DNA of 64,000 nucleotides from Mesodorylaimus sp. YZB2_4. Taxonomy: Eukaryota; Nematoda; Enoplea; Dorylaimida; Dorylaimidae. Of this stretch, positions 16,001-60,700 are shown one piece after another. The number at the start of each line of letters is the position of its first letter. Position 1 is the first letter of the stretch. A model generated the notes under the pieces. That model saw only the letters and a program-made list of their open reading frames with translations. It made no database searches and was not told the origin of the DNA. Position numbers and translations under genes: made by a program. The stretch lies in the NCBI GenBank assembly GCA_030248295.1, contig JASANH010000735.1, forward strand, positions 434,001 to 498,000. Direction: 5' to 3'.

Positions 16001-16612
16001 GTAGGTCAGGGACAACATCACTGAAGAAACAATTGTTTTCTGCTCATTCCCTGTCGAGATCTAGAATTTCTGCCATTTCCCGCGCACCATGTGCAGGTTC
16101 CATGGTTCAAATTTGTGTTGTCTGCTTTACGCGCGAAAATACGTAGAGAATGAAAGTTTTAGCTATAATGGAAAAGAAAAACGAATGGTATTCAATCGGT
16201 GACGATTGGATTATAGTTTTCTTCATCGATTTTAACAAACTATCAAGTTAATTTCACGCCAATTATCCAAAATACGCTAAAATCTACCTGATGCTGAAAC
16301 TCAATTTTACCAGTTCAATCACGTGAAGGCGGAATAATCCTGACCTCTCTTCTTCTCGCTTTGATTGCCTCTTCCGAGTTAAGGCATCCCTTTGTAATTA
16401 AAAATTGTTTACCTGGTAGAAATTTTGCATTTTTTGCGAAAACCGTTTTGCTCTTTGTTCTGCTCGGCTTGGTATTCTTGGATTCTTTCCGACTGACTGC
16501 AATCTGGCGTAAACAACGATTTGGAACGTTTCCAACTTTTTCGAGGTAAATTTAGTTGTCGTATCTAAAAATCGAAGGTCATCAATTTGTTTTTAGACAG
16601 GCATTATCAAAA
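13024..16612. other. Intergenic repeat-rich region upstream of TFIIS
   Basis: No gene recognised between the Dickkopf-like gene and TFIIS. 13.86-14.15 kb belongs to the dispersed family marked by GGTATAGTCGCGAGGCTTGCC. 14.49-15.66 kb is a tRNA-like SINE plus a composite repeat. Sequence from about 16.3 kb to 16.6 kb is likely the TFIIS 5' leader: a donor (CGAG/GTAAAT near 16547) and an acceptor (TTTTTAG/ACAGG near 16597) suggest a short 5'UTR intron. Confidence 0.5.
14491..15660 (+). repeat. tRNA-like SINE followed by dispersed composite repeat
   Basis: The left end has a tRNA-like head: GCGCGGTGGTTCAGCGG as an A-box-like segment and GGGCTCGATCCCCGG as a B-box-like segment about 65 nt later. 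Further right, 14.75-15.66 kb matches the 7.45-8.27 kb repeat, including GTTCGACTCGC near 15.6 kb. A direct duplication of GGTTGCCTT(A/G)ACTGGCCGCC lies at about 14.86-14.92 kb. No intact frame is present. Confidence 0.55.
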
Positions 16613-17722
16613 ATGAAGCCAGAGGAGCCGCATGTTGTCCGAATGAAAAGAGAATTGGACGATATGTTGCAAAAAAACACGTTAAATAAGAAACGCCTGA
16701 TCGATTTAATCGATAAATTATCAGCGATGCCAGTGGACACAGAAATGTTACAACGTACTCAAATCGGTCGTACGATCAATAATATTCGAAAAGCGTACGA
16801 AAGTTCCAAAGATATCAATCAAAAGGCCGTCAATTTGATTAAAAATTGGAAACATTTAGTCAAAGAAGAACACGAAACTCGAAGGAAATCGATCAGCAGC
16901 AATCACAACGACGATGGTAAAGCACCAAATTTTGTTGGTCCCGAAGTTCAAATTTCTTCACCAGAATCATCGATTAATACGATCGACGACGATCGCGATC
17001 ACCAATACTCGCCCGTGATGGCCAGCGGGGGTGGCGATGATCACGCCTATGTTCAAGCACGTACAAGGAAATCGTTGAGTAGATACGATTCGGATGGACC
17101 ACGGCCGGCAAAACTGGCTCGAAGCAACAGTTTGTCATCCAATTCGTCATCGGTATCAATTTCGGAGAATAGCGCCACGTCAAACGTGTCGAAAACTCGC
17201 GACGAAACTCGTAATAAATCGGTGGAATTATTACGTCAAGCATTGCTAAGTGGCGACGATCATCCTGCACAACCTCATCCCGATGGCAAAACTTCTTTCG
17301 ATTTGGCCGTCGAAATCGAGCGTTATATTTACGAAGAAATTGGCAACGCCGAGGATCGTCATTATAAAGCACGTATTCGAAGTCGTGTCACGAATATTCG
17401 AGACAAGAATAATCAATCGTTGCGTAACAATATTTTAGCTGGCATATTATCGACTCACCGCGTGGCTAGCATGAGCGTCGATGAATTGGCCAATGATCAG
17501 TTAAAACAACTTCGTCGATCGATCGAAGAGGAATCGATTCGAAATCGTGAGATTTCTGGTGACGTTGCGAGTCCGCGTACTGATATGTATCGATGCGAAC
17601 AATGCGGCGAGCGCGATGCGTCCTATTCGCTTAATCAAGAACGTGTGGAAGGTGATTACGAACCGATCGCTGTCGCCCAGCTCGTCTGCAACAAATGCGA
17701 TCATCGTTGGCGCGCTTATTAA
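16613..17722 (+). CDS. TCEA: Transcription elongation factor TFIIS
   Basis: TFIIS rescues backtracked RNA polymerase II by stimulating transcript cleavage. The single coding exon gives 369 aa from the ATG at 16613, just after a likely 5'UTR acceptor. It has all three domains: the N-terminal LW-type helical domain (about 1-90, IGRTINNIRKAY and LIKNWKHLVK), a Ser-rich linker, the polymerase-binding central domain (about 200-320, KSVELLRQALL, IRDKNNQSLRNNILAG), and the C-terminal zinc ribbon (about 326-369, YRCEQC ... VCNKCDHRW). The ribbon is odd: the catalytic hairpin, normally RSADEPMT with adjacent Asp-Glu, reads RVEGDYEPIA here, so Asp and Glu are separated by Tyr, and the loop between the cysteine pairs is about three residues longer. 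It faces RWDD4 tail-to-tail. Confidence 0.92.
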   Translation: MKPEEPHVVRMKRELDDMLQKNTLNKKRLIDLIDKLSAMPVDTEMLQRTQIGRTINNIRKAYESSKDINQKAVNLIKNWKHLVKEEHETRRKSISSNHNDDGKAPNFVGPEVQISSPESSINTIDDDRDHQYSPVMASGGGDDHAYVQARTRKSLSRYDSDGPRPAKLARSNSLSSNSSSVSISENSATSNVSKTRDETRNKSVELLRQALLSGDDHPAQPHPDGKTSFDLAVEIERYIYEEIGNAEDRHYKARIRSRVTNIRDKNNQSLRNNILAGILSTHRVASMSVDELANDQLKQLRRSIEEESIRNREISGDVASPRTDMYRCEQCGERDASYSLNQERVEGDYEPIAVAQLVCNKCDHRWRAY

Positions 17723-35880: not shown

Positions 35881-38582
35881 GAGTGACCGGTGGTGATTTT
35901 GCACCACGCCAAAAGACCCCGGGGCAGCCAGCCGAGTCTTCTGAACTCTAGCTGACCTTGCACGCCAGGCCGTGGGCGACTCATCCGGTAGGCACCGCAT
36001 ATAACCAAGCCAGGCAGGCGTAGGAGGGAGTGTGGCCGAGCAAAGTCGATGGGACAAACCCTCCAACTGGACCAGCCAAGTCTTGCGGCTATAAATAGCG
36101 GCTGAAACATTATCTTTTCCCAGCCAGGGGGAGATACTGTAGATCTTTCTCCCACGCGCCATGCTCCACCAGGCACGAGGGTTACACGTCGAGGTGCTCC
36201 GAGTGGAGACTCAAGCCAAACGAGTAGACTGTCCCGGCTGTCGAACACTGACGGGCTGGGCTCGCAGCCCACCCATCGTCCGAGGAAGTTGTTGTCGAGT
36301 TCAGGATGCCCTCGCGTGGAGGTGCTTGAAGTGGAGACACGCAGAGGGAAGCTGCTGTGTGTGGTGGTCCCCGCACAGGCTCGCTTAGGGAGTCACTGCT
36401 GGCCGGCCAAGCAAATGGGCTTAACCCCTAGTTGGTCTCACTGTTTGCAGCATCAAGTAGCAACTGTACGATGCCTATGCTAGAAGATAGTTCTTCCTTT
36501 CGTACGATTCATGTTTCAATTGAAGTTATTATTGTTTTTGGGCCCTTTTGGGGGGTTTCCCGCCCCCCTTTAGAACCCCCTTATCCCTATTTATAATTTT
36601 TTTGGCACCCCTCCCCCCCCCTCCACCCTATCACCCCCCCCACTTTTTAAAAAATAGCTGCTTGGTGTCGAAGATATAAAAACACCCCTTAGCCCTGTGT
36701 TATAACATGCGTTGGGTCTGTGGACCCAAGAGTTCGACCAACTACGGGTTAAAGCCCACAATACAGTTTAAAAAACCCAAGTCTTCGACCGTCCACGGCT
36801 GAAACATCACCCTGGCGGGTAACGCTCCCAGCTGCCAGCTCCATGCAACGAATGGATTGCCAGACGACAACACCAAACGCTAGCAAATCGTGTGAGTCCA
36901 GTTTCTCTGAATGCAACCAAGGACAGTTCCATAACGTTGGAAAATCCAGAGTGGTTGCATGTGGATTGCATGCTTTCTTCTAGGATACACCTGGTCCAGC
37001 TACCCAATCTCCAACCTGACCTCCACTCCTGGCCTTCCACTCTTGATCCATGGCCAGATCCATGTGGAACCTTAACAAATCCTGAATGGTTCCATGTGGA
37101 CTGCAGGATTTCATATGAATCCACGTGCGTGGCGTGGAAATTTGAATTCCATATAGACCCATCCTGCAAACGCGTGGAAGAGGAATCGATAATGAAGGGA
37201 CACATTATCCACGAACTGGGGGGCAGGCCAGCTCAATTTTACGCCAACACATTTTCATGTGTGATAACATATCATGGTGAAATGGACACGGCAGGAACTA
37301 CCGCGAAACTGAAAAAGATGGCGTAATGAGTTGAAGTGTCCACTCTTATACGCATGGCCGTATAGTTGGCGTGGTTTTATGCACGGCCCCATGATTTATC
37401 AGACCGAAAACACTGCCTTCTTATTGCAAGCATTGGCATATGTGCTTCTACCAGGGTAAAACTTGGGTCAGCGCAACCACGCTTCGTGTACTCTCGATCA
37501 AGCGCGTGGTCGCCCATGACGTTCTCCTCATTCCCCTAAATAGGAAGTAGTTGGACGCAGAACGACTTCTAATCGCAGATGAGGTCACGAAATGCAAACA
37601 TGTCACTGATATTCAGTCCTAATCGCGTATGAAAGCGTAAATTATGTTGGCAAGCCTGCAACGAGAACATTTCTCTCTTCGCACGACCATCAGTCTTTAG
37701 TCCAGTCCACGTTTTAAGCGAATGACGCTTACGATCAGTGCACACGGCTGTTTGTGAATTTTTATCACGGAAACAGTCCTCTGTGCAAAGTTTGCTCCGT
37801 TTTGTGCCTGGGAGCTGCCTCGGACGCCCACTCGGTGTAAGGTCCATCAGCCTAAGCAGCGAGCGCCTTACGCTTATCCGATTTTCTATGTCGATCGAAT
37901 AAGCCGTTGGAGCCTGCTTACAGTATACGAGTATGTCACGATAAAATAACATCGTCTGCTCCTCGAATAAGCAGCTTATTTCATGACGCGCGAGCCGAGT
38001 TTTTAGACATTTTATGCGTACATTGAACACGCGGAGTGCCCTGCTCATAAACAAGCTAATTAGCTGTTTTTCTGCCGTCTACAACAAAACTCACAATTTC
38101 ATCTCGCACTGCTAATTACAACCTGTAAAAACACCCGTTCGCAACAGGTGTCACATAACAATCGTCATATTCACAAATAACCTAGTACGGATGGTAGCAG
38201 GGAAAAATGAGGCCGAGACAACATCGGGATTAAACTTCTCGTATGAACGAGGTTCGGCTTAAACCGTCATCTGATCCCTGCCGACGCAACATCCTGCTGC
38301 TACTAGTTGGAATTTCCGTTTCCGAGCATCATACAATTTCCCACATTTCGCACATTGGCCGCAGGCTAGTTGTGCCAAGCACAAATCAAGACGTGGGGAG
38401 CACTGACCCAGGTTTTCTAATCCGACAGCTTTCAAGTTTCAAATAATTTTGAAAATGGCGGTAAACGCAACTAGCCTGCGCATAGTGTGCGCAAGGCGGG
38501 AAATCGCATGAAGCGCGCGAAAAAGACATTTGAAAATTTAAAATGATGTTTAGCAAAAAAACAAAGAATATAAAATTTTGTG

Positions 38583-40117
38583 CTACATCAAGTTACATGT
38601 GGTTGATTTTTTCGTCTGACTAAGCTCTTTTCTAATGGACGTCGCATTTTGACTGGCATTCAAACTGAAACGACCACTGCGAGTTTTCTCATCAATCAAT
38701 GCCAATAGTTGGGACCAAGGCGGTCGATCTTCGGTCGATTGACATTTATGAATATAAAACATTTTCCCTCGATTATTTAATAATACTTCACCGCCTAATT
38801 GATAAAGATCTTTCTTAGAGTCGTCCAATAATTGAGCATCATTGGCTTTCATAGCCGAAGCTAAAATACAACGTTCCGATGTACGGCACATGTTCCAAAC
38901 GGAAATTGGAAAATGAAAAGCTGCGATAAATTCGCCTCGTTCGTCGGCCAAGACGGGCAAATTCAAACCAATCAATTGACGCCATTTTTTACCCCCTTCT
39001 TTCGTACCCTTACACACAACGACCACATTGCACAAACGTTGATGAAATTCGTCCACTTGACTATGTAAGTCTAACACGTATCGTTCACTAATACGTCATC
39101 CGAAGAAGCGAACCAGGACAAAGAGAGTGAAATTTCCATATTTATGATTTAGACAAGAATTAAGCGTTATTTCGCGTTCGGTATCACAATCGATAAGTCG
39201 TAGTTTTTCTGAAAAAAACCTTTTAGAGAATCGTAATAATAGCAGCAGCACTCTATAGCATCTCTAGTGATAAGAGGCAGATCTTATTAGAAAAAACGGG
39301 AAGAGAAGCTGCATCGAGAAGGGAAGCCAGAGGCAGTCAAGAATAGAACAGAGGCAGCATACCCGTTCGTATGGCGGAAAAAAAGAAGAGAAAGCAGCGA
39401 AACGTACTTGTAACCTTACCATACTCGAAATTTTCCCTAGTTATTAAACTTTTGCTCTGACTACTCAATGAAAGATCGATCAATTTTAGTAACTGGTCCC
39501 ACGATGTTTCCACTTTCTCCAGTTGGTGATCTGGAAAACACAAGCTTCAGTGCTTCAACTACAAAGAAACACTCGGCACGCTTACTTTCATTGAGTCCTA
39601 CTCTTTTACACAATTCATCGATTTGTTCTCTATTTTGAACATTCAGCTTATCGAAGGCGATGGCGTACGGTTTGACCAGCACATCCACGAAATCTACGTT
39701 CCGAAAGTATTGTACGATAGCATTTCGCGATGTGCCAGTTCCATTTTCGACGCTGCTCTTTTCGGCATCGCTGAACATATTCTCGACATTGACGCGAGTT
39801 GCGTCAATTTCTTTGCACAACTCTATCAAAACGGAGGTTAAGCATTCTAGACTGGGCGAGATAGGTCGCGGTATGGACTTGGATCGAGCGGCCATTTCGG
39901 TCTTGCTCGTCGATTGGTCAATGGCCGAGGACGGTACGTGGATGGAACATTGCGTGCCTGCATCGGCGCTCACGACGGGTGCCATGGCCGTCGTCGAGCA
40001 ACTATCCGCTTTGCTCGAACTCGAAGAAGCCGACGAGATGAGCGGAGGAAAGCTCGAGGCGAGATTAAGATCCTCCGCGATGACGTGCCCATTCTCAGCC
40101 CATTCTTGTCGGTACAT
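38583..40117 (-). CDS. Candidate selenoprotein: PRXL2/SelU-type thioredoxin-fold protein with N-terminal extension
   Basis: Three exons (minus): 40117-39586, 39530-39420 and 39208-38583, all junctions phase 1. Reading through one in-frame TGA (39096-39098) gives 422 aa with the TGA as residue 252. The C-terminal domain (about 215-380) follows AhpC/TSA-like PRXL2 proteins (SelU family): KLRLIDCD..ITL, the strand FTLFVLVRFFG, then UGA-Arg-Ile-Ser, ERYVLDLHSQV, NVVVVCKG, LNLPVLADERGEF, and LGGEVLLNNRGKMFYIHKC..DRPPW. In Cys relatives the active site is FLCxxC; here the first Cys position is UGA and the second is Ser. The N-terminal roughly 220 residues, with a low-complexity Ser/Ala start, match nothing I know. 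SelU-type proteins are thought to be redox enzymes. The alternative, a nonsense-mutated gene, is less likely given the exact position. The start ATG at 40117 is tentative. Confidence 0.75.
39096..39098 (-). other. In-frame UGA, probable selenocysteine codon
   Basis: TGA follows TTC TTC GGA and precedes CGT ATT AGT in an otherwise open 626-nt exon. It aligns with the first, redox-active Cys of the PRXL2 CxxC motif. There is no room for an intron around it: the frame is coding on both sides, and only about 14 nt separate the UGA from the nearest downstream AG. I did not find a convincing SECIS by eye. Confidence 0.7.
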
Positions 40118-40531
40118 GATGACTCGTTTAATTAATTGCTATAGCGACGATGACCTGCACCAGCGAAATGCTCTCTGATATTTGCCGTTTCTATGAAGAA
40201 ATGAATTGGAAAGACGCTATTTTCCACGAGCCTATGGGCGGTAAAGTTTAGACATTGTTCCACATGGGAAAATCCATCTTTGGCGCGCACGCCTTCCAGT
40301 TAACGAGCTTTGATGGAAGAAGGCGTGCGAACGACGCCAGTTCACCCTCCGCCCATTGACGTCAATGAAGTGGGGATCGGAAAGGACAGGTTCGAATTGA
40401 CCTGTGCCATTCACTCGCTAGTCGAGCACCTGAAACGTGACGTGGCTGGCTCGTTGGAAGAAGTGAACTGGTCGATTTCTAGGCCTAATGAGGCCCGACA
40501 GCAGGCAATCTGATAAACACTGCATTGATTA

Positions 40532-42303
40532 CTATTCGCGTCTCCTGTGGCTCGCATCGATAAGCAATACCGGCTCGCAGTCGCTGATAGCGAAGCGGGC
40601 TTGTGGCCCGGGAAAAGATGAGGCGGGGATTGACAATGCCCTCGTTGGGGTCTTGATAACCTGCCTTCTTCCATCCCTACCATTTCCGACCTGTCTGCTG
40701 GACCTAATTTGAGCTTGAGCTAAAGAAACTGACAAACTATAAGTTCAAAAATGAACCAGCTTCAGCATTGCTCGAATTCCACCCGACTCGGCTCCTGCGG
40801 CCTTTCAAATCTAGCTATGAACATGATCAAGATACAAACACAAACACTTGAACCTTGGCCAATCTAGCGATTCAGTGTAAAATTTGAGTATACTGCGTCT
40901 TGGTTGGTCTTCAATCATATGGCCATTTCTCTTTCACTATCTCACCTGGTGATGCCCAAAGTTCACCCCGCCAGCAGGCCATAAACTGGAAGAACTCTGG
41001 CGGAACAGAAATGTCGCGATCGAATACTGGCATCAGCCTGGCGTAGGACGTGTCCTGTCACAATTAGGGATTGAGACAGTGGCGAAGAGATAGCGGCAAC
41101 CACCAGTTCCCCTCTGGGACCCCGTTTTGTGGGTCTTCGACTGTGGTCGACCTTACGATTAGATCAACACACGACCAAGACGGTGTCATGGTTCCAGTGC
41201 ACTCGTCAGATCGTGGTACTGGTGCCTGGAGCGTAGATTGCTGCAACCAACGCACCCAGGCGGCAGAAGACACAGGACACTGTAGACACGGCTGCATGCT
41301 GCTGATGACTGTGCCAACACGAGTTTTCGAGCTAAAATCTACTGCATCTAGTGACAGCGCCGTCGAAGACTCATGTCATGTCATGTCGTACTTTATCCCT
41401 AGCCAAGCACTATACAACACACATTTGGCAATCATTTTGTACCGAGGCGGGAGTCGAACCCTCCCCTTGTAAGTGCAACTGGTGTATGGTGCAATCACTG
41501 CATAAAGACTCTTCGTCTCACCAATACAAGGCGAGGCGAAAAGTCCTGATTGACTGAGACTTCGCGCGGCTCATCATCAGCTTGCAAGCTCATTGTACTC
41601 ACGATGGTGAATCAACCTGGAACTGATTGTGAGTCATGCTGCGCGGTGTCAGTCAGGCTGGGCACCCAGGTGGCGGCAGATGTGAGAGACCGAAGTCTCT
41701 GGGAAAAGGACCTGCGAATGGAGGGAGGCAAGCGTCGCGACTACACCTGTCGCCCAAGTGGTTGACGGCTACCAGCCAAGGGAGATCGATCTCCCAGCCG
41801 CCAGCAATGCATCACAATATTCTAGCCCAAAATTCTTGTCACAGCCTCTCCTTGTCGCGGATTGGTGAGCAACCGCGAGTGATGTAAAGAAGGACGATAG
41901 ATGATACTTTACACCCACTAAGCTATGGTTATCGTGTTAGGACGCAGCAACAGGGGCCTTTTCCGCTATACTGTCATAGTGTACGGTCGGTTCGAAACAA
42001 GTCTATATATATATACGCTAGTTTCGTTACGCATTCCCCGCAAACAAGGCACGCGTCCGTCACCAACGACTACCGATTCGCGTCACTCCTAAACTGAGAT
42101 ACTTCGAGTGGGCCCCTTACGTTCTTCAATGATTTGGCGCAAAGGTTGAAGTGTGAGATCGATTTTTCTGCAAGAAAATCGCTTATAGCTCGTTTCAAGT
42201 CTCGCAAACCACCGTCTGTGATCCGTCTATTTATTGGAATGGCAGTCAATCTCAATTTAGGAAAGATTTTGGCAAGAATTTCTGCCGGACTATGAAGATC
42301 CCC
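40532..42303 (-). CDS. 3' part of an unrecognised multi-exon gene
   Basis: I do not recognise this gene. Four candidate exons (minus) join in phase: about 42303-42121 (start uncertain; AEILAKIFPKLRLTAIPIN, then GGLRDLKRAISDFLAEK), 41279-41157 (AAWVRWLQQS, DECTGTMTPSWSCVDLI), 41054-40946 (SYARLMPVFDRDISVPPEFF, then MACWRGELW) and 40719-40532 (a basic, Ser/Pro-rich tail ending IDASHRRRE). Donors are GTAAGG, GTAAGG and GTGAGA; acceptors CTACAG, TGACAG and TTTAG. The roughly 0.8-kb first intron holds SINE copies. More 5' exons must lie above 42.3 kb. The first exon may belong to a different gene. Confidence 0.4.
41378..41480 (-). repeat. tRNA-derived SINE copy
   Basis: Read on the minus strand: B-box-like GGTTCGACTCCCGCC, then the tail matching GGATAAAGTACGACATGACA. 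Same family as 34.24-34.52 and 47.46-47.62 kb. Located in an intron of the unrecognised gene. Confidence 0.55.
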
Positions 42304-43524: not shown

Positions 43525-46075
43525 ATGAAGGCTATTCTCATACTAGCTGCCACTTTTTCGGTCGTTTGGGGAGGCAGTCTGCCGCAACCTTTCACCGAAC
43601 ACTGCATCGTGGGCGAGAAAAACTTGTATCCACCACCGGAAAACACAAGTGTGCCTTTGTTCACTGTCGATTTGGACAAAGATCCAGTGGAAAGATGGAC
43701 GGAGATAGCCAGGACGTACAGTTCACAGATCAGTGATTTGGTTCAAGTAAGGAAACAATCAGATTCAGGGTCAGGTGTCGTCATTTACTCTGGTCTGACT
43801 CGATCACCCTGAACCCCGCTCTGACTGACTGGCTTCCGCTGGGGCATCGCATAGGGCCCATGCGAGAATGCTAGTTTGCGTCAAAAAGAAGGACAGGTCT
43901 CATCAATTTTTGGGTCAATCTCGTCGTTTGCCATCCCCAGACTCTCACATTCCATACCTGGTCCACTTGTCGCAAAGGGAATTTGAAATAGTGACATGGA
44001 TGTACCACCTCGAAGTAAAGTATAGCAGGCATGGGGAGGACCCGCGAGATGGTCGGGGCTGTGGTAGCAGGTTCGACATGCATGACAGTCAAGCCCGGCA
44101 GCGGGCAGTGGTTTGGGCACTAATAGTTGCTTTCTGGGCGAGCCAACCAAGCCGCCTGGGTGGTGTAGTGGTGGAAGGCGTGTGTCACAGCTTGCTTGGC
44201 GGAGCTGGACACCAGTCGACCCTGAGTTCGACTCTGGCCGTCTGAGAACTTGGTCGAGTCCTGCGCCTCGCACGCCTGGCGGTGGGTGCCTCACCCTTCA
44301 ATCCTCCAGGAGAGGCCTTGTGGGGCGGGAGGCTCTCTAATCTAGGTCCCCTCACGGAGCGCAGTCTACGCTATGTGGGTATGGTTACCGCACAGGGTAG
44401 CCGGCGACATGGCGGGGTAGCGACTAACACGCACCCTTGCCCGGCACGCATCCCGGATTGACCCTAGTCGATGGCAAGCCCGCGGCCAAAAATCGACCCT
44501 CCCCTGCCCCAGACGCAAGCTGACCCGCTCTCTTTTGCTTACTTGCCATCAGATAAATGGGTGGACTGATTCTATCATCTGATCCTGGCGACAGATGTGC
44601 TTTTCAGGGCGCCAAAGACTTCATCGCAGCATTTTTGGGCGGGAAGATAGTGGACTCTTTGGTCAAGGAGCTGGGCAATTTGGACGACAAACTACCCCAA
44701 CCCTACGCCGATGAACTGCGTGGCATATCGAACGTGACTGGGGTGCCCCTGGGAGAAATAGTGCTCTACAACATCTTCTACGAAGTCTTCACTGTGTGCA
44801 CATCGATCGTGGCCGAAGACGAGCAAGGCAAATTATATCACGCCCGCAACCTGGACTTTGGTCTCTTCTTGGGCTGGAATGAGAAAACGCACGATTGGGC
44901 CATCACCGAACGACTCAGAAAGACCATCGTCAATGTGGAATGGAAAAAGGGCGGGAAAACAGTTTTCAAATCAGTCAATTTCGCTGGTTTTGTGGGTGTG
45001 TACAACGGGGTACGACCACAAAGATTCACGGTCACGGCTAACGAACGGTTCGACCTGAAGGACGGGGGATACATCGGCATACTCAAGTGGCTGATGGGCG
45101 ATCGATCGGCTTCTTGGATGACCTTGCTGGTCAGAGAAGTCATGGAGAATGCCGACAGCTATGACGCCGCTGTCAGCCAGCTGTCCAACACACGCCTCAT
45201 GGCGCCCGTTTACTACATCGTGGGTGGCAACTCCTCGGGTAAGGACACCTGTACCAGCACACAACCGCACGAAACCTGCACCTGAAACTACATTTTACGC
45301 ACAGCACAAGCGAAAGAATATTGCTCTTCCAAATCAGAACCGAAAGCGCTACATTCTTGCGCTGTGTAAAATATGGTTTCAGATCGAGGTTATCTTCAGA
45401 ACTTATTTCAGGTAAATGCACCACCATTGTCCGCTCCCAAAACCCACGTCTGAAACCATCTTTTACAAACAACACAAGCGAAAGAATATTGCACTTCCAA
45501 ATCAGAACCGAAAGCGCTACATTCTTGCGCCGTGTAAAATATGGTTTGAGATCGAGGTTACCTTGAGAACTTATTTCAGGTAAATGAACCATCATTGCCC
45601 GCTCCCAAAACCCGCGTCTGAAACCATATTTTACACACAACACGAGCGAAAGAATATTGCAGCTCCAAATCAGAACCGAAAGTACTACATTCTTGCACTG
45701 CGTAAAATATGGTTTCAGATCAAGGTTATCTTGAGACGATTGATTTCAGGTCAAGGTTCCATCATTGTCCGCTCCCGAGCCGAGACCCTGGACGTGGTCA
45801 CATTGAACACATCCGATCCGAATGGCTGGTACGTCCTGGAGACCAATTACGATCCCAAATCCAAACCATTGTTCATCGACGATCGTCGCACTCCGGGCAA
45901 CGAATGCATGCAAAGACTGGGCAGGAAGAATGTGGGATTCGCAGGCATATTCAACGTGCTCTCATCGACGACCAACCTGAACAAGCTGACCGCCTACACG
46001 ACCCTGATGCAAGTCGATGCGGGTACCTTGGAAACGTACATTCAAAAATGCGAGGACCCATGCTGGGCGTTCTGA
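43525..46075 (+). CDS. ASAH1: Acid ceramidase
   Basis: Lysosomal N-terminal-nucleophile hydrolase that splits ceramide into sphingosine and fatty acid. Exons 43525-43746, 44608-45238 and 45750-46075 give 392 aa, about the human length. It has a signal peptide (MKAILILAATFSVVWGG), the conserved prodomain/alpha-subunit region, and the catalytic Cys in FTVCTSIVAED (about residue 138), where the precursor normally self-cleaves. HARNLDFGLFLGW carries the active-site Arg and Asp. Also seen: VNFAGFVGVYNGVRP, APVYYIVGGN, LETNYDP, DDRRTPGN and the terminal CEDPC. The first intron contains a SINE (about 44.15-44.30 kb). The second contains three tandem MITE-plus-exon-start units. An AATAAA lies at about 46141. 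N-acylethanolamine amidase is the alternative in this family; the match to ceramidase is closer. Confidence 0.92.
44150..44300 (+). repeat. tRNA-like SINE in ceramidase intron 1
   Basis: The A-box-like GGTGGTGTAGTGGTGG and B-box-like GAGTTCGACTCTGGCC are about 55 nt apart. The downstream sequence is non-coding. It lies wholly in the 861-nt first intron. Confidence 0.45.
45239..45749 (+). repeat. Tandem units (MITE plus exon-start copy) in ceramidase intron 2
   Basis: Three family-1 elements (45282-45382, 45450-45550, 45618-45718) alternate with copies of the sequence at the real exon 3 start. TTATTTCAG then GTAAATG(C/A)ACCA and CATTG(T/C)CCGCTCCC occurs at about 45408 and 45576; the true exon 3 at 45750 reads TTTCAG/GTCAAGGTTCCATC then ATTGTCCGCTCCC. 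The unit is about 168 bp and the copies are highly similar, so the amplification is fairly recent and leaves decoy acceptors in the intron. Confidence 0.75.
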
Positions 46076-57280: not shown

Positions 57281-57723
57281 TTCGTTTATTTATTTTAGAA
57301 AGAAATCCTGCACTGAACGTGCCGAACGAAAAGAGCGACCCGATGCCAGTGTCAAGATATCAAATATGCGAGTTCCCGCTTCTAGCAGAAACGACATGCG
57401 CATCAGTAAGAGTTGTCTGCTATAACCGCGAAACATTTTCGAGCAGCTGTTGAGTGCGTGCGTTTGTTCTGGGAATTATCAGCTCGTGTGGTTTCGGCTC
57501 GTCACGAGAGCTAGGACACGGCAGTCGCTTGGCGCCAGTATGTTCGATAAGAAAATGCTTGTGTGTGACCTTTGTTATCGAGTGAACGGGTGTTTAATGG
57601 GAGCTGGAGTCGGTGAGATAAAAGAGCAGTCATTCTGGGTCCAGGCGCGCAGCTACGTGCGGCCTGGTAGAGCGGTGGTAACTTGCATTCCAACGGCGAA
57701 AGAGTTCGGTCTAGTTTGAAAGA
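57281..57723. promoter_or_regulatory. Head-to-head intergenic region between MIF copy C and the A-T-R-SDR gene
   Basis: 443 bp separate two divergent start codons, so both promoters must lie here unless 5' non-coding exons reach further. I see no clear TATA box. The open frames in it look like chance. Confidence 0.4.
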
Positions 57724-60700
57724 ATGGCGGTTAATGGATTCAACTCCATCGAAAATGCATTTGATTACGAAAAGCAAGGCTGCTTGCACGAAATGTACCA
57801 GCGGCAAGTGCAAGCTACGCCGGACGCGGTCGTGGTCGTGGCGCCGCCGTCCAGTGATAATGGCAAGACTACGAGTTATACTATGCGCCAACTGGACCAG
57901 TATGTTGGATTATTGTCGAGGTATCTGCGGGAGAAATGCGATGTGGTTGCGGATAGTTGCGTAGGAATCTACATGGATAAATGCCCCGAATACGTCATCA
58001 GCTACGCGTCTATATTGAAAGCCGGTGGCGGATATATGCCCTTGGATTTATCTTATCCGAAATCTCTACTACGATCGATTTTGGACGAATCTCTCCCGAA
58101 AGCAATTTGTACGAAACCTGAATTTGCTTCCGTATTCGAAAATGGTACGTGACTTGTTTATCTGGCTTCCATCTTGGCTAGCTGTTGTTTATTACAGAAA
58201 GTCTTCCTATTATTGTGTTGGATGATGGCTGGCCTAGTCGTCTTGAGAAAGAACTGCAAACGACGAAATCCGTGAAGAATTCTCCGAAGAAAGTCACGTT
58301 GGACAACTTGGCGTATTTGGTCTACTCGTCGGGCACTACTGGAAAACCGAAGGGTAAGTATGAGGCCAGGGCGACCCCGCTTGAAATTGTGGGAATTTCC
58401 GGCAAGCTTTTATGAGTCTTCTCCCTGCAGGGAACGATTTATGTTGATTACTTGCGCGGATCAGTCTCAGTTGACGGGTCGCCTGGGCTGCGAGTAGTAA
58501 CGGGCGTAAATAATGAATCAAAGCGGCCTTTTTTTCAGGCATGCTTTGTCCCCATCGTGGATCAGTCTTTTCCTACCACTGGCGGCATGTGGCGTATCCA
58601 TTTCTGCCCGACGACCGAGTGGCGTGCAACGTGTTCTTCGTGTGGGAAATGTTTCGGCCAATCCTGAAAGGTATGATCTCATGGCTGCTGTTTGAGTGCA
58701 CCTGTTCGGGCTACACTGAAACACTGTAATGCGCTGTTTCAGTGTAGCCATCGCCGCGAGGGGACTCACATCAGCCTGTCGAGTTGATGTTTCGCTGGTC
58801 ATTGGCTGCTTGAAATCAGAGATGGCTGTTATGTTTCGTGTGGTGTGGTGTGAGCTGGCCATGGGGTTACCTCATCAGGTGTCTAGATTCACTGTTACCC
58901 CTTCCCAAGTACCCACTGGTTGTTTATATCTTATCAGACGTTCGGGTATAATCACTCCTATTGCAGGTATTCCCATGTACATCATACCGGACGACGTGAT
59001 CTACGATCCAGCCCTGCTTTGCCGATTCCTCGGAAAACATCAGATCACGCAAATCCTGTTCACGCCCTCGCTCTTTGAAGCTGTATTGAGTACACAATCT
59101 GCGCCTGTCATCGAAGATGCTTTTCGATCCATGAGGTAGGTGCAGCTTTGCAATGTGCTGGGCTCGCCTTGAACTGAGAAGCGTGGGGCCATACCTGTCA
59201 AGATGATCAGGCACCAAACAAGTCGAAAGACTTCCTGCTTCCAGGCATATGCGGTAACTGATTCTCATGCAGCTCACAAGACGTGTCAACAGGCAAGAAT
59301 AGTCCCGTTGTTTCAGGCAAGTGTGGTTATGCGGGGAAGTGGTGACCGTGACTTTGGTACGACGAGCCAGCCAACTGCTGCCCAACGTACAGCTGGTCAA
59401 CCTCTACTCCATATCCGAATGTCACGATGTGGCCGCAGTGGATTTGTCGGATTGGTACAAAAGCTGCGCGGTAAGAATGGCAAAATTTCATTTCTGAATT
59501 GCAATTTGAATGAGAAAATGATTTTTAGGATTCACTAAAGGATCCGAAAACGGCAAGGAAATTCGCTCCAGTTGGGAAGCTGCTGCCGGGAGTAAAAGTG
59601 GCAATGATGGACGAAAAAATGCGGCCGCGGCCCATCGGAGTATCTGGCGAGGTTAGTCAGTCACTCACTATCAGTGAGTCTAAGCAAGGATGCCTTTTGT
59701 GAAACCATATTTTGCGCACCCTTCGCTGCCCTCTAGTCTTCTATTCTGGTTTATCAATCCTTCACAAGACCAGCAGCGTAAAGTATAATTTCAGACATGG
59801 CTGGTCTGGCTGGGCCTACTGACATGTGATTGGAGCACGTATGCCTTGCACTGTTCCTATTGCTTACTGTGGCCGTTCAGTGCTCTCTGAACCTGTATTT
59901 TACACACAGATGTAAAATTCTGGCATTTTGAGTCTTCTTGACTCCAAAGTCAGTTTCACATTCATCTTGGCATGTTGACGTACCAGGCACACAACTGTCA
60001 CGCTGTACGATTGCGATGGGTGTGTAAAATTTGGTTTCAAATAGACGGCTGTACCTAACAGTGCTTCATAGATCTTCGTCGGTGGGCCCTGTTTGGCCCT
60101 TGGTTATGTCAATCGACCCGAAATCAATGCCAAAAAGTTTTTGGCCGCTCCCAAGGAACTCGTACCGCAAGTTGGAGCTCGATTATATCGAACAGGAGAT
60201 TGGGGGTATTTACTGGCCGATGGTGATTTGGAGATTTGCGGTCGGTGTGATACTATGGTCAAAGTGCGGGGGTATAGTATTGAAATACAGGTATGACAAG
60301 CCAGCTACTTGCCGTTGCACTCTATGACTGAGGGACATTCCAGGCCATCGAAGCGGCATTGGTGCTCATGGAGGGCGTGAGTGCGTGCGTGGTGGTGACG
60401 AAGGGCGAGGAGGGCGAGGACAAGTACCTCGTGGCCTACGTCGTCCTGCGCGCTCAGAGCGGCCTGACCAGGAAACACATGCGCAACGGGCTCAAGAGCA
60501 AGCTGCCCTTCTACATGATCCCCAGCTACTTCGTCATTTTGCCACAGTGAGTCGCGCACTGCCTTCGCAGCAGGCCAGCATCGACTACTCTGTCTTGCAG
60601 ACTGCCGCTCTTGCCCGCCAGCAGCAAGGTGGACAAGAAGGCCTTGCCCGAAGTGGATCGTGTGCGCGACGTGATCGAGCCCGAGGCCTTGCCGAGCACA

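Follow-up and report, generated by a model that had tools for sequence, protein, structure and literature searches.

A gene in the window (the whole 64 000-nt stretch of Mesodorylaimus sp. YZB2_4 DNA analyzed here) very likely encodes a selenoprotein in which an in-frame UGA is read as selenocysteine (Sec). It represents a single-Sec variant, with the active-site motif UxxS, in a four-gene family resembling SelL, and not a new kind of system. The gene lies at positions 40117-38583 on the minus strand and is modeled as three exons encoding 422 residues, with U at residue 252 (Table 1). The exon boundaries of this predicted model were set from splice signals and the reading frame. The introns flanking exon 2, GTAAGC...CCAG and GTAAGG...TTTCAG, have GTAAG donors and CAG acceptors, and the acceptor preceding exon 3, TTTTTTTCAG, terminates at 39209. 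The sole match in a Pfam search with exon 1 scored 14 bits, below the cut-off of 27; by eye, the N-terminal stretches of the window gene and of its paralogues on contigs C82 and C50 resemble each other.

Table 1. Features of the window gene and its 3' UTR
Feature	Positions	Strand	Description
Exon 1	39586-40117	minus	ATG start, 177 codons + 1 nt; N-terminal region without recognized domain
Exon 2	39420-39530	minus	111 nt, linker
Exon 3	38583-39208	minus	Prx-like domain (PF13911; best curated family NF040769 SelL_rel_redox), ends at TAG
In-frame TGA, selenocysteine reading	39096-39098	minus	Residue 252 of the 422-residue model; residue 37 of exon 3
AGT (Ser), second motif position	39087-39089	minus	UxxS; TGA there (UxxU) in two paralogues
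C-terminal CNLM, CaaX-type motif	38586-38597	minus	Paralogues: CVIL, CVLV, CSIL
SECIS element, form II	38222-38276	minus	AUGA core (38270-38267), helix II, AA in apical part, mini-helix, GAUG

The frame of exon 3 reads KLRLIDCDTEREITLNSCLNHKYGNFTLFVLVRFFG-TGA-RISERYVLDLHS, i.e. TLFVLVRFFG-TGA-RISERYVLDL, and contains exactly one TGA (39098-39096) and no TAA or TAG until the TAG at 38585-38583. An earlier sequence-only reading of this DNA had placed a single in-frame TGA on the catalytic cysteine position of this exon, followed by 170 open codons up to a normal TAG, and the frame scan bears out both statements. The probability of 169 open codons, calculated from the stop-triplet frequency of the window's minus strand, is 1.3e-3, so the open length by itself counts as modest evidence only. 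That reading had also proposed that a coding fold continues past the TGA. In agreement with this, the exon 3 protein (with X at the TGA) matches PF13911 (AhpC-TSA_2; E 3.1e-11, 44.1 bits, cut-off 27) over exon 3 residues 46-154, all beyond the TGA, and it also matches PF00578 (E 5.3e-6). In all six pairs of the paralogues described below, divergence is greatest at third codon positions both before and after the TGA, with the part before the TGA comprising only 36 codons. A PDB search yielded no sequence match.

The TGA would not specify any residue if an intron removed it or if it were a true stop that ends a 251-residue protein. Exon 3 does offer sites for such splicing, with 26 in-frame GT..AG pairs (40-400 nt) that span the TGA and 14 in-phase AG sites past it, the most pyrimidine-rich at 38794 (9/12) and 38860 (8/12). 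However, none of the 26 spanning pairs has a GTRAG donor, and joining of the exon 2 donor to one of the 14 later acceptors is unlikely because the conserved active-site region would be deleted. The residues flanking the TGA are moreover conserved on both sides in the four genes described below, and the downstream codons diverge as coding sequence, which makes both a spliced-out TGA and a 251-residue product very improbable.

When the genome to which the window belongs (145 Mb in 1067 contigs) was searched with PF13911, five places matched: the window gene and loci on contigs C82, C50, C135 and C22. Four of them (window, C50, C82 and C135) carry TGA at one aligned position, with the motifs RFFG-U-RIS in the window gene, RFYG-U-YTS on C50, RFYG-U-GA-U on C82 and RFFE-U-SS-U on C135. 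UxxS, which the sequence-only reading had recognized in the window gene, is thus found in two genes (window and C50), and UxxU in the other two. In a genome search with NF040769, the matches on C82 and C135 each contained two stops and those in the window and on C50 one each; all were TGA. These six in-frame TGAs fall at the two motif positions, and the matched stretch is free of TAA and TAG in all four genes. The NF040769 match on C22 contained no stop; the PF13911 match there crosses introns (two TAG and two TAA inside), and by eye the gene encodes a PRXL2-like protein with Cys. Domain identity to the window gene is 57% for C50, 40% for C82 and 44% for C135. The C-termini of all four proteins fit C-x-[LI]-x (CNLM, CVIL, CVLV and CSIL), and the cysteines at exon 3 positions 59, 65 and 155 are invariant among them.

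A young pseudogene, in which a nonsense mutation has struck a former Cys gene, would likewise show one in-frame stop and be open elsewhere. Against this, the stop is shared by four copies that have diverged to the identities given above, in two of them the other motif position is a TGA as well, a SECIS follows each of the four genes, and the divergence after the stop is of the coding type. We consider a pseudogene extremely improbable.

The sequence-only reading had named 37.5-38.6 kb as the region in which to look for a SECIS element. By eye, the 3' UTR of the window gene contains ATGAC...AA...GATG with a mini-helix. We built a covariance model, R1, from four SECIS elements outside the window, namely one after each UxxU paralogue (C82 and C135) and one after each of two thioredoxin-reductase-like genes; the four were aligned with N placeholders in the loops because MAFFT gapped or misplaced helix II. 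The window candidate was known by eye before the R1 structure was drawn, and it was kept out of the training set. In a scan of the 64 kb on both strands with filters off, the first-ranked R1 match was 38276-38222 (21.3 bits, E 0.012), inside the region named by that reading, with the runner-up at 11.4 bits. Its core lies 312 nt past the TAG stop and 825 nt downstream of the UGA.

R1 was also run on 15 further loci, where it recovered two of its training elements as well as eight that had been held out, the latter at 17.0-27.4 bits; the best score among the five remaining loci was only 9.7 bits. The held-out matches adjoin a SelT-like gene (L018), Rdx genes (L014-L017), a SelS-like gene (L006), SPS (L019) and the C50 paralogue (L011). 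The names SelT, SelS and TrxR reflect recognition from reading frames and not profile calls. Among the Rdx loci, L016 and L017 have similar scores and could be close copies of each other; the Rdx match in L017 showed no TGA. In an alignment of 12 elements including that of the window, which leans towards R1 because it was fitted to R1, 92.5% of cells are paired, 49 cells show two-sided changes (15.4, sd 3.1, in shuffles), and covariation is 0.910 (0.244, sd 0.041, in shuffles). One of the five shuffle measures is weak: pairs showing a two-sided change number 10 in the alignment versus 7.8 in shuffles, and 33 of 500 shuffles reach the observed value. Folding z-scores (-1.19 for the window element, -1.19 to -1.93 for four elements) are unremarkable and were therefore left out as evidence.

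The Rfam SECIS models gave no match at positions 36000-41000 up to E 10, where seven weak non-SECIS matches were returned. The genome-wide RF00031 search, in which 134 of 2823 candidates were scored, gave five sites that do not include the window site. The strongest of the five (39.1 bits, above the gathering score) lies just past the coding end of the C82 paralogue. Four of the five adjoin genes recognized as selenoproteins, and the fifth (L007, 22.5 bits) does not.

Some of these loci have features of their own. In the C135 paralogue, a TGA (L012 1357-1359, minus strand) apparently also serves as the true stop after CSIL, 16 nt ahead of the start of the SECIS model match (1340); a single mRNA would therefore have two UGAs read as Sec and one that ends translation. 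The frame of the SelS-like gene, named by recognition (L006 1360-1460), ends in GGGGGUG followed by TAA, with the SECIS soon after. Two thioredoxin-reductase-like genes on C1 (L004 and L005), likewise named by recognition, have a SECIS and frames ending in NCUS and KCUS; the usual tail of thioredoxin reductase is GCUG.

The genome also contains three components of Sec synthesis and insertion that the sequence-only reading had listed for checking, tRNA-Sec, eEFSec and SepSecS. We found a tRNA-Sec on C75 (76.4 bits), domain III of eEFSec on C3 (111.3 bits), and SepSecS on C64 in seven colinear pieces covering 27-388 of 389 profile positions; we take the stops inside four of the seven pieces to be introns. 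SPS is present on C283 (L019) as four colinear pieces, each below the whole-protein cut-off, with an R1 match after them. The piece covering profile positions 207-310 includes a single TGA (frame SGR-U-SKF), which presumably does not coincide with the known Sec site of SPS2 and probably belongs to an intron. Pieces resembling PSTK on C68 are weak, the best scoring 33.1 bits against a cut-off of 382. Three of the five Rdx matches in the genome have one TGA. Together with the TGA in three paralogues and the SECIS at 38276-38222, the machinery supports the earlier proposal that the UGA specifies selenocysteine.

The family was assessed with curated profiles and with prokaryote relatives. NF040769 is the top NCBIfam match for all four genes, at 71.4 bits for the window gene, 88.4 for C82, 66.7 for C50 and 60.4 for C135, all below the cut-off of 120. 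The sequence-only reading had described the domain as PRXL2/SelU-like; PRXL2-like remains apt given PF13911, but SelU fits less well as a family name, because NF040769, a SelL-related profile, is the top curated family for each of the four genes. Judged from these sequence comparisons, the window gene probably belongs to the SelL-related family and not to SelU.

SelL (SELENOL), which carries two Sec residues, is a selenoprotein found in fish, invertebrates and marine bacteria. It has been described as Prx-like (PMC2398784), and a table in PMC3473315 gives one gene each for Amphimedon, Trichoplax, Nematostella, Capitella and amphioxus. According to the description in PMC3316567, its two Sec are two residues apart and one SECIS serves both. 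Both features, a double Sec and a SECIS, are seen in the C82 and C135 paralogues. The window gene differs from SelL in being UxxS, where SelL itself is UxxU, and in having four copies in this one genome. A selenoprotein of the SelU/PRXL2 family would also fit the window gene in that PF13911, a PRXL2-type domain common to SelU and PRXL2A-C, is matched above its cut-off, all NF040769 scores fall short of that profile's cut-off (60-88 of 120 bits), and SelU, with Sec or Cys at this position, is reported to occur with Sec in invertebrates (PMC3473315). This assignment is nevertheless unlikely: NF040769 ranks first in all four genes, two copies have the double Sec published for SelL, and the PRXL2-like Cys gene on C22 matches NF040769 far more weakly in the genome search (23.3 bits versus 44.9-73.4 for the four TGA genes, a partial comparison because C22 is split by introns).

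The prokaryote set comprised 40 genomes, drawn from 40 of 117 stretches that matched a 16S probe pattern which we take to be of Planctomycetes type; by title, several belong to other phyla. NF040769 had matches in 18 of the 40 genomes at 1e-6, six of which exceed the cut-off. The best 13 of 33 match rows were aligned with the four paralogues. These rows, of domain length only, are 14-24% identical to the window protein; they share with it the domain and the TGA column, which holds TGA in eight of the 13 rows and Cys in the other five. Six of the eight TGA rows (L150, L151, L153-L157 and L159) are UxxC, one is UxxT and one UxxF, and this variation in the second motif residue suggests that the partner residue is unconstrained. 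After two of the 13 rows (L160 and L169) were dropped, a profile-profile comparison of the four paralogues with the prokaryote rows gave a probability of 99.0 (E 2.1e-18). In searches with the four-gene alignment, no confirmed relative was found in assembled-genome contigs (91 pattern matches) or viral contigs (129), and plasmids gave only three weak archaeal redoxins.

The prokaryote rows also bear on whether the UGA could be read through with an ordinary amino acid, giving a selenium-free protein. Such read-through would not be expected to place the TGA on the redox Cys column, where TGA also stands in eight of the 13 prokaryote rows, in a genome with SECIS elements and Sec machinery, and we give it a very small chance next to insertion of Sec.

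In a tree of the 17 rows, rooted on the prokaryote rows as an outgroup with a long branch and with three of 14 inner branches starred, the four paralogues form one clade (100/100). The window and C50 copies group together (100/99), C135 joins next (95/77, a fork short of full support), and C82 lies outside. Since the two outer copies are UxxU, the simplest history is a single replacement of Sec by Ser in the ancestor shared by the window and C50 copies. The ancestral motif would most likely have been UxxU, with the second Sec replaced by Ser in that common ancestor.

Sec-containing relatives with comparable features have been described elsewhere. A bacterial AhpC/TSA pfam13911 selenoprotein listed in a table of PMC9312934 has the same Pfam family and UxxS motif as the window gene, likened here by description. 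Also compared by description, the AphC.like proteins of sponges are multi-copy Sec-containing Prx-like proteins of animals, reported in PMC3473315 as known only from sponges. In contrast to a sponge origin, a COX1 copy in the window's genome reads sensibly under the invertebrate mitochondrial code. To our knowledge, that code is not used by sponges. In this copy, on C73, 10 TGA codons are taken as Trp, and AGA/AGG as Ser and ATA as Met give a sensible reading; this suggests a protostome animal, a judgement made on one copy in a large contig. It is the one almost full-length match among 15 COX1-like matches on assembly contigs (C73, C273, C741, C47 and others; L028), which we regard as mitochondrial insertions or assembly joins.

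We propose that the host Sec machinery decodes the UGA at residue 252 as selenocysteine, directed by the form II SECIS in the 3' UTR (38276-38222). The Sec would take the place of the attacking Cys in a Prx-like fold, as predicted from the profile matches. A lone selenolate would then most likely attack a peroxide or a disulfide. There is no Cys or Sec three residues on, and the oxidized selenium would therefore have to be resolved elsewhere. By analogy with 1-Cys peroxiredoxins, it would most likely be regenerated by another conserved Cys, for which the invariant residues at exon 3 positions 59, 65 and 155 are candidates, or by an external thiol.

C-termini of the CaaX type are linked to prenylation by a general motif rule. 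The C-x-[LI]-x ends of all four proteins accordingly suggest prenylation, and a prenyl anchor would place the proteins at the cytosolic face of a membrane. Among the matches listed in a literature search for SelL or selenoproteins with prenylation or CaaX, nothing relevant appeared, which does not imply absence from print. We give the catalytic and anchoring steps of this mechanism about an even chance of being right. More tentatively, and with somewhat less confidence, the four genes may constitute a prenylated, membrane-anchored SelL family in which two diselenide-capable UxxU proteins stand beside two one-Sec UxxS peroxidases or reductases that use a different resolving partner. Diselenides are hard to reduce, and it has been speculated that aquatic organisms possess systems for this (PMC2397514). 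Compared with the published descriptions cited here, three features are unusual: the co-occurrence of UxxU and UxxS copies, the size of the family (four genes) and the CaaX ends common to all members. Having sister genes of both types side by side in a genome would make it possible to compare one- and two-selenium active sites inside a single cell. A gene caller that takes TGA only as a stop would be expected to shorten all four proteins.

Three other domain matches in the window lie on the plus strand. An apparently single-exon TFIIS-like gene is found at 16556-17719 (TFIIS_M, E 3.4e-27), and a piece of an AMP-binding domain at 57715-58149 (E 6.6e-17). A choloylglycine-hydrolase-type domain (CBAH) spans 44557-45282 (E 8e-13), and at the end of its frame begins a tandem array (45272-45775) of three copies of a 168-nt repeat, of which copies 2 and 3 are 89% and 71% identical to copy 1.
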